DNA of 25,399 bases from a virus. The translations under genes and the position numbers were made by a program. Of this stretch, positions 671-5,092 are shown in pieces. The DNA lies in IMG/VR virus record IMGVR_UViG_3300020468_000066, positions 1 through 25,399 of that record; one strand, written 5' to 3'. Within the stretch, counting starts at the first letter, position 1; each line of letters starts with the position of its first letter. Under the pieces are notes generated by a model that was not told where the DNA came from, made no database searches, and saw only the letters and a program-made list of their open reading frames with translations.

Positions 671-956
671 CTTTTGAAATCATTAAAAAAATATAGGTAA
701 GGTGCTCTCACGATGCTGTCTAAGCCTGCCACCTACCGAACGATTTGTCAACCCTCTGAAACACTCTGTAACAATCCGAGGACACTTCAGGAACTGGCAC
801 AAGGTACGCCCCAAACCCCTGAAAGTCTGTTATTATTAAAACATGGACATCAGAGAAACTGAGAAAACTCACTTTTTTACTTTTTTGAGTTTTTTATAAA
901 CTTATAAAAGTTAAATTTATGACTTTTTCAGTTTTTGGGAGTTCTTATTTAATGAC

Positions 957-1297: not shown

Positions 1298-1459
1298 ATG
1301 CCACGGCGTAAGAATATCAATTCCTCTGATGTTTCATTGGAGGAATCTGATCAATATCTAAAGGATCAAGGATTTGAAGTCAACAATGCAAAGAGAGGTA
1401 AGAAGAAAAGAATAGCAAAGTATAAGAAAGAAAGCAGCTGGCAGGAGGACAGATATTAA
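1298..1459 (+). CDS. Basic small protein, 53 aa
   Basis: ATG to TAA (1457-1459). The protein starts MPRRKNINSSDVSLEESDQ, has a short acidic middle, and a very basic C-terminal half (AKRGKKKRIAKYKKESSWQ). It lacks cysteines and membrane segments. The composition suggests an RNA- or DNA-binding small protein, but no family is recognised. Its stop codon lies inside the dyad of the first terminator-promoter cassette (1448-1503), as for the other genes in this array. Confidence 0.55.
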   Translation: MPRRKNINSSDVSLEESDQYLKDQGFEVNNAKRGKKKRIAKYKKESSWQEDRY

Positions 1460-1503
1460 ACTGTCACACACCCCCTTTACAGGGGGTTTTTTATTGCTAT
1501 AAT
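1448..1503 (+). promoter_or_regulatory. Terminator-promoter cassette 1
   Basis: Dyad GACAG (1448-1452)/CTGTC (1461-1465), then hairpin CCCCCT/AGGGGG, then TATAAT at 1498-1503. The hexamer TTTACA (1476-1481) inside the hairpin could serve as a -35 element with a 16-base spacer. The dyad centre (1456.5) is 41.5 bp upstream of the -10 box. The upstream gene's stop codon is inside the dyad. Confidence 0.7.
1470..1493 (+). terminator. Rho-independent terminator
   Basis: A 6-bp GC-rich stem CCCCCT/AGGGGG (1471-1476/1481-1486) with a TTAC loop, extended by one A-T pair, is followed by TTTTTT. It ends the transcript of the 53-aa gene and at the same time overlaps the next promoter. Confidence 0.8.
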
Positions 1504-1565
1504 GAATATGGGAAACAAATGCTACGGTATTTTGTTTCTCGCACCTAATCTACGATCCTCTCTAA

Positions 1566-1697
1566 ATGAAAGTTTCTCTTAAGAACACTAAAGCAGAATT
1601 ATTTGATGCAGTTCTCAAGAATGACACATACAGACAAGAAAGAAATGCACTTGCATGGATTCTAAGCTTTGTCTCTGTATGGGCGATCCTATTCTAA
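1566..1697 (+). CDS. Small single-pass membrane protein, 43 aa
   Basis: ATG at 1566, stop TAA at 1695-1697 directly before the next dyad. The N-terminal half is polar and helical (KNTKAELFDAVLKNDTYRQERNA) and the C-terminal 15 residues are hydrophobic (AWILSFVSVWAILF), consistent with a tail-anchored single-pass membrane protein. No Shine-Dalgarno is visible; the predicted leader from the TATAAT at 1498 is about 56 bases. A 24-codon frame starting at 1508 overlaps it and is considered unlikely to be the gene. Function unknown. Confidence 0.55.
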   Translation: MKVSLKNTKAELFDAVLKNDTYRQERNALAWILSFVSVWAILF

Positions 1698-1755
1698 CCA
1701 GTTTACAAACTGTCCACTAAGCACCCCACTAGGTGCTTTTTTCATGTATTATAAT
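1698..1755 (+). promoter_or_regulatory. Terminator-promoter cassette 2
   Basis: Perfect dyad CAGTTT-AC-AAACTG (1699-1712), hairpin AGCACC/GGTGCT, and -10 box TATTAT (1747-1752; overlapping TATAAT 1750-1755). The dyad centre to the TATTAT hexamer is 41.5 bp. The expected transcription start coincides with the ATG at 1759, implying a leaderless message. Confidence 0.7.
1720..1742 (+). terminator. Rho-independent terminator
   Basis: Stem AGCACC (1720-1725)/GGTGCT (1732-1737), 6-base loop, and a run of six T ending at 1742. It terminates the 43-aa gene's transcript just ahead of the next -10 box. Confidence 0.75.
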
Positions 1756-1758
1756 AAT

Positions 1759-1941
1759 ATGAATACAAACACCAAAGCATTAAGAGTTTTTAAACTCACA
1801 GACAATCAAGTCTCTATGATGTGTGAATCTATCATGTTTGCATATGAAATGGACATTGAAGAGCGTAACGAATGGGATTCAGATGAATTCAGTTCTATGA
1901 TTGACGAAGTTGTCAACTCTTACAAGGAGAATGTATTATGA
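1759..1941 (+). CDS. Acidic small protein, 60 aa
   Basis: The start is taken as the ATG at 1759 because the open frame upstream runs through the terminator and promoter. The protein begins MNTNTKALRVFKLTDNQVS and continues as predicted helices rich in Asp/Glu (MDIEERNEWDSDEFSSMIDEVV). It has no cysteine cluster or membrane segment. TGA at 1939-1941 overlaps the next ATG (ATGA), so the two genes are probably translationally coupled. The -10 box TATTAT at 1747-1752 puts the transcription start at about the first base of the ATG. Family not recognised. Confidence 0.65.
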   Translation: MNTNTKALRVFKLTDNQVSMMCESIMFAYEMDIEERNEWDSDEFSSMIDEVVNSYKENVL

Positions 1942-2135
1942 CTCAAGATTACAAACAACAAATTGAACTTGATGGTTACATCAATATCTGGGAAGTAATA
2001 CCAGAGGATGAGCATAACCATATTTCTAACAAGATATGGGAAGCACTTGACAGAGCAGGTATTACATTATCTCAAGATGCTGAATTATCAGTTAGAGTGT
2101 ATGATACTATTAGTAACAATGCAACCAGTTCATAA
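1938..2135 (+). CDS. Small protein, 65 aa
   Basis: ATG overlaps the previous stop and is preceded by AAGGAG (1924-1929), a strong ribosome binding site 8 bases away. The protein is acidic and probably mixed alpha/beta (LDGYINIWEVIPEDEHNH, then a helix ISNKIWEALDRAGI). Its last residues, ATSS, are encoded by the start of a 24-base repeat that also forms the end of the 45-aa gene at 2722. Function unknown; co-expressed with the 60-aa gene. Confidence 0.7.
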   Translation: MTQDYKQQIELDGYINIWEVIPEDEHNHISNKIWEALDRAGITLSQDAELSVRVYDTISNNATSS

Positions 2136-2145
2136 AGTGGCACAC
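2122..2145 (+). repeat. 24-base direct repeat, copy 1
   Basis: Identical at all 24 positions to 2846-2869. It starts CAACCAGTTCATAA and ends GTGGCACAC, includes the stop codon (2133-2135) of the upstream gene and the dyad of cassette 3, and diverges immediately outside. Confidence 0.9.
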
Positions 2146-2183
2146 ATGCGGTTGCAACTCACTGGCATCTGTGTCATTATAAT
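2125..2183 (+). promoter_or_regulatory. Terminator-promoter cassette 3
   Basis: Imperfect dyad at 2125-2140 (CCA.TT....AA.TGG), then a stem CACACATGC (2141-2149)/GCATCTGTG (2165-2173) with one C-C mismatch, then TATAAT at 2178-2183; TTGCAA at 2152-2157 may be a weak -35. Dyad centre to -10 is 45.5 bp, the only cassette off the 41.5 spacing. There is no T-tract, so termination is doubtful here. Confidence 0.6.
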
Positions 2184-2209
2184 ATTAGTTCACTCATCAC
2201 CTTTCTTTT

Positions 2210-2533
2210 ATGCGTAAAATTGAATCACAAATGACAACAGCAATCTCACGCCGTGACAATTGGTCTAAATCCAATACACAGGTTACAACAGATTCAAATG
2301 GTGATTCTAGCGTATACCTACACGGTCACAGAATCGCAACTGTTCACAGTAACAACGATATCACATTATCGTCATGCGGTTGGGAGACTGTCACAACCAA
2401 ATCTAGACTAAATGCAATCCTTGATGATTTTGCATATGGTCTACGTATTTTCCAACGTGACTGGTGCTGGTACATCGGTACTAGTGATAAGGATAAGCAA
2501 TTATTCTTTGACGGATTCAAAGTTATTCGCTAG
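2210..2533 (+). CDS. Hypothetical protein, 107 aa
   Basis: ATG 27 bases after the TATAAT box, with no Shine-Dalgarno in the short pyrimidine-rich leader; an internal ATG (residue 8) is an alternative start. The protein has an N-terminal Ser/Thr-rich segment, then alternating strands (SSVYLHGHRIATVHSNNDITLSS), and an aromatic C-terminal part (DFAYGLRIFQRDWCWYIG) ending in FFDGFKVIR. It appears to be a compact soluble beta-rich domain. I do not recognise the family. A strong terminator follows at 2567. Confidence 0.7.
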   Translation: MRKIESQMTTAISRRDNWSKSNTQVTTDSNGDSSVYLHGHRIATVHSNNDITLSSCGWETVTTKSRLNAILDDFAYGLRIFQRDWCWYIGTSDKDKQLFFDGFKVIR

Positions 2534-2566
2534 AATGTAAGAGAGACTGAGACAATATACCGCTTA

Positions 2567-2598
2567 GGTCCCCTGAGTATTCAGGGGATCTATTTTTT
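2567..2598 (+). terminator. Rho-independent terminator
   Basis: Stem TCCCCTGA (2569-2576)/TCAGGGGA (2581-2588) with a GTAT loop, followed by TCTATTTTTTAT. It is the strongest terminator in the early region. Confidence 0.85.
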
Positions 2599-2657
2599 AT
2601 CCTTTACCTAATAACACAGTGACTGAAGCACTCATTAAGACGAGTTGTAACGATGAG

Positions 2658-2686
2658 TTGCAACTTTGGGGGTTGTATGTTATAAT
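2658..2686 (+). promoter_or_regulatory. Sigma70-like promoter
   Basis: TTGCAA (2658-2663), 17-base spacer, TATAAT (2681-2686). A stem ACTCAT/ATGAGT (about 2630-2635/2653-2658) lies upstream. This promoter lacks the dyad at the cassette distance, so it is a variant unit. The leader to the ATG at 2722 is about 29 bases. Confidence 0.65.
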
Positions 2687-2721
2687 TAGATATACATTCT
2701 TTCGTAGAAGGAAATCCAGCC

Positions 2722-2859
2722 ATGCATAAGATCCTAACTTTTAAAGAGTACCTAGAAGGGGAACTCAAGTATTATGATGAGCACCCCGAAGAAGAAGAGA
2801 TTGAAGCCCATACTAACGGATCAAGCTGCCTGGATGTTGACTATTCAACCAGTTCATAA
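2722..2859 (+). CDS. Very acidic small protein, 45 aa
   Basis: ATG preceded by AGAAGGAAA (AAGGA 9 bases upstream) and TATAAT at 2681. The protein has an N-terminal helix (MHKILTFKEYLEGELKYYDE) and a highly acidic middle (HPEEEEIEAH), ending STSS. The stop codon lies in the second copy of the 24-base repeat, so its C-terminus is shared with the cassette. Acidic small early proteins in phages are often inhibitors or DNA mimics, but no specific role can be assigned. Confidence 0.65.
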   Translation: MHKILTFKEYLEGELKYYDEHPEEEEIEAHTNGSSCLDVDYSTSS

Positions 2860-2869
2860 AGTGGCACAC
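2846..2869 (+). repeat. 24-base direct repeat, copy 2
   Basis: Exact copy of 2122-2145. It again spans an upstream stop codon (2857-2859) and a cassette dyad, 724 bases from copy 1. Confidence 0.9.
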
Positions 2870-2903
2870 TCATTCCCCATTGATAGGTAGAATGAGTTAT
2901 ATT
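2849..2903 (+). promoter_or_regulatory. Terminator-promoter cassette 4
   Basis: Imperfect dyad 2849-2864, perfect 8-bp stem ACTCATTC (2868-2875)/GAATGAGT (2890-2897), and TATATT at 2898-2903 (alternative TATAAG 2903-2908). Dyad centre to TATATT is 41.5 bp. It would drive a transcript starting near 2910, at the left arm of the structured leader. Confidence 0.6.
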
Positions 2904-3064
2904 ATAAGAGTGGAAGACAACGCAAGGCAGGGGTGAGAAACAATTCAGGAGCATCTTTGATTGCACACTGTGGAAAACTTCTCTTTATGTTTGGAGACCT
3001 CTTGTACTCACGGTAACTCATCCGTTATAAAAATATGAGTTTTGAAGATGTCTTCCACTCTTAT
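2904..3064 (+). ncRNA. Candidate structured leader or small RNA closed by a 16-bp inverted repeat
   Basis: Positions 2904-2919 are perfectly complementary to 3049-3064. With a predicted start near 2910, the RNA keeps at least 10 bp of this closing stem. Inside are a 7-bp hairpin AACTCAT (3015-3021)/ATGAGTT (3035-3041), a GTGAG (2933-2937)/CTCAC (3007-3011) helix and small stems, so a multi-branch fold of about 150 bases is possible. No gene is seen inside. The following gene starts 18 bases after the right arm, so this is either its 5' leader or a separate small RNA; the right arm is followed by a T-rich but not classical tail. It matches no RNA family that I can identify by eye. Confidence 0.45.
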
Positions 3065-3081
3065 TCTTTACAATTCAGTTT

Positions 3082-3261
3082 ATGTCATTTTTCAAGCACG
3101 TCAAACTTCATGAGTACGATATAACAGACCTTGGCATTATGCAAGCATGTTATGATGAACTAGTCGCAGATGGTAACAACAGCGATGAAAAGCAATTACG
3201 TATTCTAGCACGTGCTATGAGAGAAGAGTTCAAAGATTACATGCGACCTCTATTCGCATAG
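3082..3261 (+). CDS. Small protein, 59 aa
   Basis: ATG after a T-rich leader with no strong Shine-Dalgarno, stop TAG at 3259-3261 directly before the next dyad. The protein is mostly helical: MSFFKHVKLHEYDITDLGIM, then QACYDELVADGNNSDEKQL and LRILARAMREEFKDYMRPLF. It has one cysteine and balanced charge. Translation may be influenced by the structured leader at 2904-3064, whose right arm lies 18 bases upstream. Not recognised. Confidence 0.65.
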   Translation: MSFFKHVKLHEYDITDLGIMQACYDELVADGNNSDEKQLRILARAMREEFKDYMRPLFA

Positions 3262-3317
3262 ACCAGTTTTCAAACTGTCCACTATTCCCCCATTTGGGGG
3301 CAATGGGTGGTTATAAT
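3262..3317 (+). promoter_or_regulatory. Terminator-promoter cassette 5
   Basis: Perfect dyad CAGTTT-TC-AAACTG (3264-3277), hairpin CCCCC (3287-3291)/GGGGG (3296-3300), and TATAAT (3312-3317), 41.5 bp from the dyad centre. The transcription start should fall on or next to the A of the ATG at 3324. There is no T-tract after the hairpin. Confidence 0.7.
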
Positions 3318-3323
3318 GTGTAT

Positions 3324-3503
3324 ATGAACGAAACACATTTCAACGAGTTCTATCCCCAACTTACTCAAAAGGGATACACACACAGAGAGGTTACTACTTC
3401 AAAGACAGTTGAAGAAGTGCCACAGTGGTATCTTGACAGATACGGCAATACAACATATAATGAATATGTTGAACACCTTTCAGATTATCTCAACGGACTT
3501 TAA
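3324..3503 (+). CDS. Small protein, 59 aa (probably leaderless)
   Basis: The ATG at 3324 is 12 bases from the first base of the TATAAT box, so transcription and translation should start at the same place. An in-frame TTG at 3294 lies in the hairpin and is rejected as the start. The protein is polar and aromatic (MNETHFNEFYPQLTQKGYTH, VPQWYLDRYGNTTYNEYVEHL). No family is recognised. It is followed 3 bases later by the next gene, so it heads a four-gene operon (3324-4104). Confidence 0.65.
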   Translation: MNETHFNEFYPQLTQKGYTHREVTTSKTVEEVPQWYLDRYGNTTYNEYVEHLSDYLNGL

Positions 3504-3506
3504 ATC

Positions 3507-3686
3507 ATGAGTACACTTCATCACGAGTCCTTACTTGAAACATGCTTTGACGAAGCATGGGAGAATTTCAGGACTCACAACAAGTTAACCGAAGACGAAT
3601 TAAATTGGTTAACTAACAACACTCTAGGCACAATAGATGCTATAGAGAAACAAGCACAAAGACTCTTTGAGGGTTTGTGCCAATGA
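3507..3686 (+). CDS. Small helical protein, 59 aa
   Basis: ATG three bases after the previous stop; TGA at 3684-3686 overlaps the next ATG. The sequence is helical and acidic (ESLLETCFDEAWENFRTHN, LTEDELNWLTNNTLGTIDAI), with two cysteines and no membrane segment. It is the second gene of the operon begun by the leaderless gene at 3324. Function unknown. Confidence 0.65.
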   Translation: MSTLHHESLLETCFDEAWENFRTHNKLTEDELNWLTNNTLGTIDAIEKQAQRLFEGLCQ

Positions 3687-3838
3687 GAATTTTAGAACTC
3701 ACAGAGAAACAAGAGGAAGCACTTGCTTCCTGTCTTGTCATGATCGCTGACCTAGGGGTTCCCGATCATATAGATGAAAAATCTTTTCATGAACTGTTTG
3801 ACACAGTAACCGAACCAGCACCTTGGGATTACAAATGA
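3683..3838 (+). CDS. Small protein, 51 aa
   Basis: Start and stop both overlap neighbouring genes by ATGA, implying translational coupling. The N-terminus MRILELTEKQEEALASCLVM forms a likely amphipathic helix, followed by IADLGVPDHIDEKSFHELFDTV and a short aromatic tail (EPAPWDYK). The layout resembles small phage early regulators, but no family is recognisable. Confidence 0.65.
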   Translation: MRILELTEKQEEALASCLVMIADLGVPDHIDEKSFHELFDTVTEPAPWDYK

Positions 3839-4104
3839 TTTTATCAAGACAGCAAAGAACCGAACTCACAGAGCAATTTGTTGAAATTGTGGTGGATAAC
3901 ATGTCGGAAGAAGTTCTCGTATCCTATGCACAGGAGATGATGACAGAAAATTGTGATCATTTAATGCAACAAGAATTAAAAGAAATGGTTCTCTTATATG
4001 ATGAGGAACTATGGGACGAATTAGTGGAGAATGTCCATACTACCACGTATGGTCTAGAAGTGGGCGAATCAATTTCATTTCCTGTCCACAATCCAGACAG
4101 TTAA
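3835..4104 (+). CDS. Acidic helical protein, 89 aa
   Basis: ATG at 3835 overlaps the upstream TGA; an in-frame upstream TTG at 3823 is less likely. The protein is strongly acidic and almost all helix: MILSRQQRTELTEQFVEIVV, NMSEEVLVSYAQEMMTENCD, QQELKEMVLLYDEELWDELV, then a strand-like tail (TTYGLEVGESISFPVHNPDS). It is the last gene of the four-gene operon; its stop (4102-4104) lies within the next dyad. Function unknown; the C-terminal GESISFPV motif is common in small phage proteins but not diagnostic. Confidence 0.7.
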   Translation: MILSRQQRTELTEQFVEIVVDNMSEEVLVSYAQEMMTENCDHLMQQELKEMVLLYDEELWDELVENVHTTTYGLEVGESISFPVHNPDS

Positions 4105-4151
4105 CAAACTGGTACACTCATTGCCCCACTCATGGTCAGGCGATGTATAAT
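4098..4151 (+). promoter_or_regulatory. Terminator-promoter cassette 6
   Basis: Dyad CAGTT-AACA-AACTG (4098-4111), stem CATTGCC (4119-4125)/GGCGATG (4139-4145, one G-T pair), then TATAAT (4146-4151) with no gap. Dyad centre to -10 is 41.5 bp. TTGCCC (4121-4126) may act as a weak -35. Confidence 0.7.
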
Positions 4152-4178
4152 TAAAGAGTACACCACACAGGAGACCAT

Positions 4179-4484
4179 TTGAAAAGACTTGAACTAATCA
4201 TGGGTCGCAACATTCCCGATAACGGAACTGTTACCGATAGCATGATGAACGATTTCATCAAACGTGAGGTCATGCCACATTTTGAATATGGCACGTTCAT
4301 AGATGGCGAAGGTCTCTGGAAGGGTGAACTTGAGAACACCAAGATTTTTTATCTTGAGTGTCCAGATAATGAGGTTGAAGATCATCTCCTCTCTATGCAC
4401 TGCATCGCAGCAGCATATAAGAAACAATTCAGACAAGATTCTGTATTGATTTCCACAGTCCAAACAAACGCAGTTTTTAACTAA
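4179..4484 (+). CDS. DUF3574-like protein, 101 aa
   Basis: A TTG start is chosen because AGGAG (4169-4173) lies 5 bases upstream; the first ATG is codon 8. The sequence fits the DUF3574 pattern as I know it: NIPDNGTVTDSMMNDFIKRE near residues 11-30 (polar turn followed by a helix), VMPHFEYGTFIDGEGLWKG at 31-49 (a strand with a conserved Gly-rich turn), and a C-terminal helix plus strand with IAAAYKKQFRQDSVLISTVQ near 76-95. The family's biochemical function is not established. It stands between cassettes 6 and 7 with one downstream partner, so it is probably expressed early. Confidence 0.65.
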   Translation: MKRLELIMGRNIPDNGTVTDSMMNDFIKREVMPHFEYGTFIDGEGLWKGELENTKIFYLECPDNEVEDHLLSMHCIAAAYKKQFRQDSVLISTVQTNAVFN

Positions 4485-4642
4485 TGACTTCTTCTACTTC
4501 AACCGCTATTAGATATTGGACTGATTACGATCAGTTCAACCCTAGGCGTATCACGTTCAACACTTATGCTAAGGCGTTGGACATGCTCACATTCTATAAG
4601 GGTGCTGGTATCAGGTGCGAACTTCTTCCACCTGGTCTGTGA
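4484..4642 (+). CDS. Small protein, 52 aa
   Basis: ATG overlaps the last base of the DUF3574-like gene's TAA. The protein starts MTSSTSTAIRYWTDYDQFNP and continues RRITFNTYAKALDMLTFYKGAGIRCELLPPGL: a short strand, a helix and a strand. The stop TGA (4640-4642) is within the dyad of cassette 7. Co-transcribed with the DUF3574-like protein; function unknown. Confidence 0.65.
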   Translation: MTSSTSTAIRYWTDYDQFNPRRITFNTYAKALDMLTFYKGAGIRCELLPPGL

Positions 4643-4696
4643 CAGTTTAATATGTGTCACAACTTGCCACGCATAGGGTACAAATCACCCTATAAT
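4638..4696 (+). promoter_or_regulatory. Terminator-promoter cassette 7
   Basis: Dyad TGTGACA (4638-4644)/TGTCACA (4655-4661), hairpin AGGGT (4675-4679)/ACCCT (4687-4691), TATAAT (4691-4696), and TTGCCA (4664-4669) as a possible weak -35. Dyad centre to -10 is again 41.5 bp. Confidence 0.7.
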
Positions 4697-4924: not shown

Positions 4925-4996
4925 GATGCTAGGTCGGATGCCGAGCGATGCCAAAAAAGTACCTTCTTTCTAACCTACAAACGTTTCCCAGACAGC

Positions 4997-5004
4997 GATA
5001 AATA
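4997..5004 (+). promoter_or_regulatory. T4-type late promoter
   Basis: GATAAATA matches the late promoter -10 of T4-type phages (NATAAATA). It precedes the small coiled-coil and PAAR genes. A 12-codon frame at 5024-5059 with a Shine-Dalgarno-like AAGGA lies in its leader; coding is doubtful. Confidence 0.5.
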
Positions 5005-5063
5005 TCAAAAGGAAAATGAAAAAATGAAAACCTTGAAACTGAAAAAATTTCTCTGGTAAAAAA

Positions 5064-5092
5064 TTGCCAAAAAAGACGAGCTATGCTACAAT
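5064..5092 (+). promoter_or_regulatory. Sigma70-like promoter
   Basis: TTGCCA (5064-5069), 17-base spacer, TACAAT (5087-5092), 18 bases before the ATG at 5111. Together with the late-type box at 4997 this suggests two modes of expression. Confidence 0.5.

Follow-up and report, generated by a model that had tools for sequence, protein, structure and literature searches.

A palindrome at a fixed distance from the -10 box as the core of putative promoter cassettes between the small genes of T4-like cyanophages

The junctions between small genes in a fragment of a T4-like cyanophage genome carry a recurrent element, in which a palindrome of about 24 bp is followed at a nearly constant distance by a consensus -10 box, and these cassettes are probably compact, early-type, positively controlled promoters of the T4-like cyanophages. 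In the mechanism proposed, a dimeric regulator would bind the palindrome, centred near -53 relative to the predicted start, and would recruit RNA polymerase with the host main sigma factor to the -10 box lying 30 bp downstream; as no -35 would be needed, the -35 region would be left free and would often hold the intrinsic terminator of the preceding gene. In this way a cassette of about 70 bp would both end one transcription unit and start another, and recombination could remove, add or rearrange a unit made of the cassette with its gene or genes, its neighbours staying unbroken. We infer activation rather than repression, and likewise the nature of the regulator and an exchange by homologous recombination; the early timing of the promoters may be presumed from their position and from a report on Syn9.

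The DNA analysed (the window) is an IMG/VR contig of 25,399 nucleotides, virus record IMGVR_UViG_3300020468_000066, whose first 5 kb hold small ORFs belonging mostly to PHROG families without known function, and which from 7.5 kb on encodes gp25-like and gp6-like baseplate proteins, a giant virion structural protein and further structural proteins. In Syn9, the small-gene block at 44-54 kb likewise lies 5' of gp25 and gp6, and by this likeness of gene order the window is regarded as a fragment of a T4-like cyanophage and the cassette array as its hypervariable small-gene block. The window contains 8 occurrences of the core CAGTTYAYAAASTGKCAC at up to three mismatches, where 0.44 would be expected, all of them on the plus strand and within the first 4.7 kb. 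A composite profile of the palindrome, the gap and the -10 box, built from several hundred copies from many contigs (including the few of the window, with P-RSM4 and Syn9 left out), retrieved all seven junctions for which the first-pass annotation had described a shared order of elements, with scores of 25.6-39.1, and gave no match in shuffled sequence or in 20 kb of structural genes of the window. Each junction consists of the palindrome, about 30 bp and then the -10 box; the seven junctions are borne out, but an eighth cassette at 783 had been missed (Table 1). The latter is found at the same place, just after a conserved block at 616-740, in the relatives L298, L304-L306, L310, L312 and L313. 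One more profile match, inside a gene at 3406 (29.1), is probably a coding coincidence, as a comparable match is found where a homologous gene encodes the same peptide. The TATAAT-like box ascribed to each junction was present throughout, with the reservations that at 2126 it sits out of register, as CATTAT at gap 31 or as TATAAT at gap 34, and that at 1699 the palindrome is one base longer (TATTAT at gap 30 or TATAAT at 33). Near-identical 55-bp copies of the cassette at 1450 occur in L009, L014, L021 and L023, and an exact search with its 34-bp terminator-promoter piece returned one contig.

Table 1. Cassettes and the predicted non-coding RNA in the window
Feature	Position	Strand	Elements and remarks
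Eighth cassette (783)	778..836	+	dyad 778-801; -10 TATTAT 831-836; without hairpin; composite score 35.8, null 0
Cassette 1 (1450)	1445..1503	+	dyad 1445-1468; terminator 1470-1493; -10 TATAAT 1498-1503
Cassette 2 (1699)	1694..1755	+	dyad 1694-1717; terminator 1719-1744; -10 TATTAT 1747 or TATAAT 1750
Cassette 3 (2126)	2121..2183	+	dyad 2121-2144; -10 CATTAT 2175 or TATAAT 2178
Cassette 4 (2850)	2845..2903	+	dyad 2845-2868; 8-bp inverted repeat 2868-2897; -10 TATATT 2898-2903
Predicted structured non-coding RNA	2905..3062	+	fold z -3.5; about 15 contigs
Cassette 5 (3264)	3259..3317	+	dyad 3259-3282; hairpin without T-run; -10 TATAAT 3312-3317
Cassette 6 (4098)	4093..4151	+	dyad 4093-4116; hairpin; -10 TATAAT 4146-4151
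Cassette 7 (4643)	4638..4696	+	dyad 4638-4661; inverted repeat 4673-4693 overlapping -10; TATAAT 4691-4696

The extended palindrome, TGTG(a/c)CAGTT-N4-AA(C/G)TG(G/T)CACA, was derived from 602 non-redundant copies from cyanophage contigs, and the constant features of the cassettes were found to be this palindrome and its distance of 29-31 bp to the -10 box, rather than the position of a hairpin, as had been supposed. The logo of the same copies gives TATAATA at -10, a purine at +1 in 88% and T at +2 in 70%; the outer TGTG..A, the +1 purine and the +2 T lend support to the promoter because they were unselected when the copies were collected. The -35 positions hold less than 0.27 bit, that is, no conservation, nor is any sequence conserved at -30. 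Since the 602 copies were picked with the -10 box at 29-32, their gap distribution is not evidence of the spacing, which comes from two other sets. Among 166 copies fetched by the motif, with gaps of 10-60 permitted, 150 have a gap of 29-31. A further 80 contigs, retrieved through a protein and hence free of bias towards the motif, hold 297 core matches vs 18 for the reversed pattern, and a TATAAT within 70 bp downstream lies at gap 29-32 in 79 of 87 cases and elsewhere in 8, while the control patterns (reversed, spacer 3, spacer 5) gave 17-32 motif matches with at most 3 TATAAT at gap 29-32. The composite with a four-base loop is present in at least 120 IMG/VR stretches; the three-base-loop pattern, which served as a control, hit 27, all from unrelated chance-like families. 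The median 5' leader is 19 nt.

By these sequence features, the cassette resembles a promoter of the activator type whose palindrome has its centre near -53. In 14% of the copies vs 1.3% of the shuffles, a -35 matching at 5-6 positions is present, and given this proportion some copies may be ordinary sigma-70 promoters. A minor class of cassettes, seen in L078, L096 and L121, has a gap of 25 and a TTGACA-like -35 straight after the palindrome. The palindromic, operator-like site might instead serve a repressor that shuts the genes off later in infection; however, the dyad does not lie over the -10 box or the start, and a promoter without a -35 would need help and not repression, which makes this reading quite unlikely.

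Strict intrinsic terminators lie between the palindrome and the -10 box in 17.6% of the copies, compared with 0.7% of the shuffles and 0.8% on the reverse strand. Being placed inside the 30-bp gap, they are nested in the next promoter, and their strand bias indicates that they end the transcription of the upstream unit. Gap hairpins of at least 6 bp occur in 32% of the copies vs 5% in shuffles. In the window, intrinsic terminators were detected only at 1450 and 1699, two of the seven junctions, in agreement with the earlier claim of at least two classical ones; the hairpins at 2850, 4098 and 4643 have no T-run and are stronger than those of shuffles (p<=0.023), the one at 3264 is borderline by the same comparison (0.09), and neither 2126 nor 783 has a hairpin significant against shuffles. 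The stop codon that had been noticed in or beside the dyad proved to be a general trait: of 572 copies, 179 (31%) have the stop of the upstream ORF abutting or overlapping the core, vs 41 at random positions (7%).

This adjacency to the stop codon, together with the ability of some copies to fold, would suit a dyad that works as RNA, namely as a 3'-end hairpin or a processing site of the upstream mRNA. However, the arms show no positive compensatory covariation, and the pair 2/11 is even anti-correlated, to which negative association the mismatch cut-off used for collecting the copies may add. Covariation in the dyad had been suspected by eye (CCAGTT/AACTGG vs ACAGTT/AACTGT), and the test gave it no support. 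Because the arms lack compensatory pairing, the palindrome looks like an operator and not an RNA hairpin; a role in RNA, which would also leave the fixed distance to the downstream -10 box unexplained, is very improbable.

Close relatives were fetched via the gene at 4200, and in several of them the modules break at the base level in the cassettes. Thus, the homology of L289 and L290 ends at 3279/3282 of the window, inside the dyad of 3264, and resumes at 4169, 3' of the cassette 4098, which means that four genes between two cassettes are absent. In L288, the module of 3835-4104 (or to 4126) comes first, then that of 3303-3686 (or 3264-3682) and then the sequence from 4098 onward, the breaks of order falling at the dyads (3264 and 4098-4126); in L301 the modules are arranged differently again, the non-coding RNA lying behind the 3082 gene. 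Between L220/L089 and L228/L229, near identity begins at the dyad and extends over the gene that follows, whereas the sequences upstream of the dyad are unrelated. A cassette goes together with the gene that follows it more often than with the one before it, as expected of a promoter. The bulk statistics are less marked. Gene adjacency, compared with the use of mechanical gene calls, is kept at 0.16 of the cassette junctions vs 0.24 of the others (p 0.001), much of which goes with intergenic length; by identity band the values are 0.00/0.26/0.82 vs 0.19/0.45/0.80, a modest difference. Alignment ends fall at gene edges beside the cassettes and are not significantly enriched inside the cassette intervals (circular shift, p 0.2-0.3), and the junction 4484, which has no cassette, also breaks frequently. 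The comparison of gene content with cassettes in relatives, which the first-pass annotation had put forward as a check, therefore yielded clear single cases and a modest overall excess of breaks; exchange of the PeSL type at the cassettes is supported, as far as genome comparison goes, and to call them the engine by which small genes are gained and lost was too strong.

The PeSL cassettes of T4-type phages, reportedly described by Arbiol in 2010 and Comeau in 2014, combine a promoter with a stem-loop and are said to shuffle genes. Were the present cassettes of the standard kind, an ordinary sigma-70 early promoter with a terminator, their main evolved role would be to offer homology for shuffling and the dyad would be incidental. 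The clear module breaks, the terminators in 18% of the copies and the near-identical 55-bp cassettes between non-homologous flanks fit such a view, but conservation is strongest in the dyad, which keeps its distance, the -35 is not conserved, most copies are without a terminator, and the gap sequence of unrelated cassettes is near random (0.26-0.32 identity), so that outside the dyad and the -10 box there is little homology to offer. The standard PeSL is thus unlikely. The likeness seen at first holds for the promoter beside a terminator, the hypervariable block and the changes of gene content, and fails for the early -35, which is missing; the terminator is optional, and the dyad, taken at first for an extra upstream part added to a PeSL, is the main conserved promoter element.

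The motif is far above chance in the scans of the window, P-RSM4 and Syn9. In both reference genomes the small-gene block holds such sites, others precede a peptidase gene and cobS, and the structural clusters are nearly free of them; Syn9 has 13 sites at a score of at least 14 vs 0.4 in shuffles, placed at 44.8-53.0 kb and at other non-structural loci. The composite is specific to phages, with no match in 58 small cyanobacterial genomes, presumably of Prochlorococcus/Synechococcus to judge by their size, vs 20 matches in 8 phage records. Nine contigs came from a scan of GTDB; the full architecture and many copies are confined to the contigs of a single MAG, the other matches being chance-like. 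The contigs of this MAG (L267 and L270, Flavobacteriales TMED113) hold many copies of the phage promoter, and L270 holds the phage non-coding RNA as well; they are probably cyanophage contigs binned by mistake.

The regulator which the preferred promoter mechanism calls for may be a host protein hijacked by the phage. In several larger or filamentous cyanobacteria, a single conserved copy of GTGWCAGTT-N4-AASTGTCAC lies in front of a short ORF or RNA that is itself conserved, and a -10-like box follows at about 32 bp; in one genome the palindrome lies directly before a Cyano-1 sRNA. In L268/L278 and L279-L284, the cyanobacterial palindrome precedes ATGCAAGGAGTGATACC (a MQGVIPL-like short ORF or RNA) or the Cyano-1 sRNA. 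These copies form a candidate host operator and are a lead to a host regulator rather than a proof. Against a host protein speak the 58 genomes without a composite match and the GTDB result, with its chance-like matches and a single MAG with phage-like contigs, so that this origin of the regulator is doubtful. Among the small candidate regulators of Syn9 and P-RSM4, Pfam recognized no DNA-binding family.

The structured RNA at 2905-3062 begins at about the predicted start of the cassette at 2850, by which it is predicted to be driven. Its core reads GCAAGGCARGGGTGAG...CTCTTTATGTTTGGAGACCTCT, about 11 bp of pairing join its two ends in the copy of the window, and two compensatory pairs were found in the alignment; one of the 15 or so contigs that carry it comes from the phage-like MAG, and it had no Rfam match. 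Two conserved non-coding blocks were also observed, one at 616-740 (81-84% in many relatives), just 5' of the cassette 783, and another at 4966-5080 (73-78%), after the last cassette and before the ORF 5111.

Few marine viruses are as abundant as the T4-like cyanophages, whose host-takeover genes shuffle quickly and are for the most part unknown. A novel element is said, in the work of Doron et al. of 2016, to control the transcription of the early genes of Syn9 and to be widespread in T4-like cyanophages (Syn9, P-TIM40), and it is presumably the same as the cassette element described here, which also occurs in Syn9 and commonly in T4-like cyanophages (at least 120 IMG/VR stretches). To our knowledge, the nested terminators and the shuffling at the element were not part of that work. 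In the literature covered, no description was found of a link between the early element and shuffling of the PeSL type, of the fixed 30-bp geometry with nested terminators, or of base-level breaks at the dyad, while shuffling at promoter-terminator cassettes is already known as PeSL. Tentatively, and with rather less than even confidence, the cassettes might be regarded as a distinct class of activator-dependent promoters, in which a recognition site moved up to -53 leaves room in the -35 region for the terminator of the gene before, initiation and termination share an exchangeable module of 70 bp, and the regulator may derive from the cyanobacterial operator of a small gene or sRNA. With the rule of a palindrome, 30 bp and a -10 box, these promoters can be located in whatever cyanophage contig is at hand. 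If the genes are early, the regulator would be needed almost as soon as infection begins. The cassettes would also give a concrete route for swapping small genes as complete units with their own transcription start and stop.

Among the known systems, the T4 early promoters comprise UP, -35, TGn and -10 elements and the middle promoters a MotA box at -30 (PMC2988021), and marine T4-like cyanophages lack motA and/or asiA (PMC5780444). The cassettes resemble the T4 middle promoters in that a phage-specific element replaces the -35 before a consensus -10 box at a tight distance (PMC2988021), but the MotA box is non-palindromic and centred at -30, where the cassettes have no conserved sequence, their palindrome being centred near -53. 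A low density of PeSLs was noted in the cyanophage S-PM2 (PMC4503421). With PeSLs the cassettes share a compact promoter, in part of the copies with a stem-loop, and a location between small genes in hypervariable regions where genes are exchanged and gene content differs between related phages. They differ in that a host-type early promoter with both -35 and -10 is not conserved in the 602 copies, the palindrome at -53 being the key element instead of a conserved sigma-70 early -35. The terminator, present in two of the seven cassettes first noticed in the window and in 18% overall, is optional.
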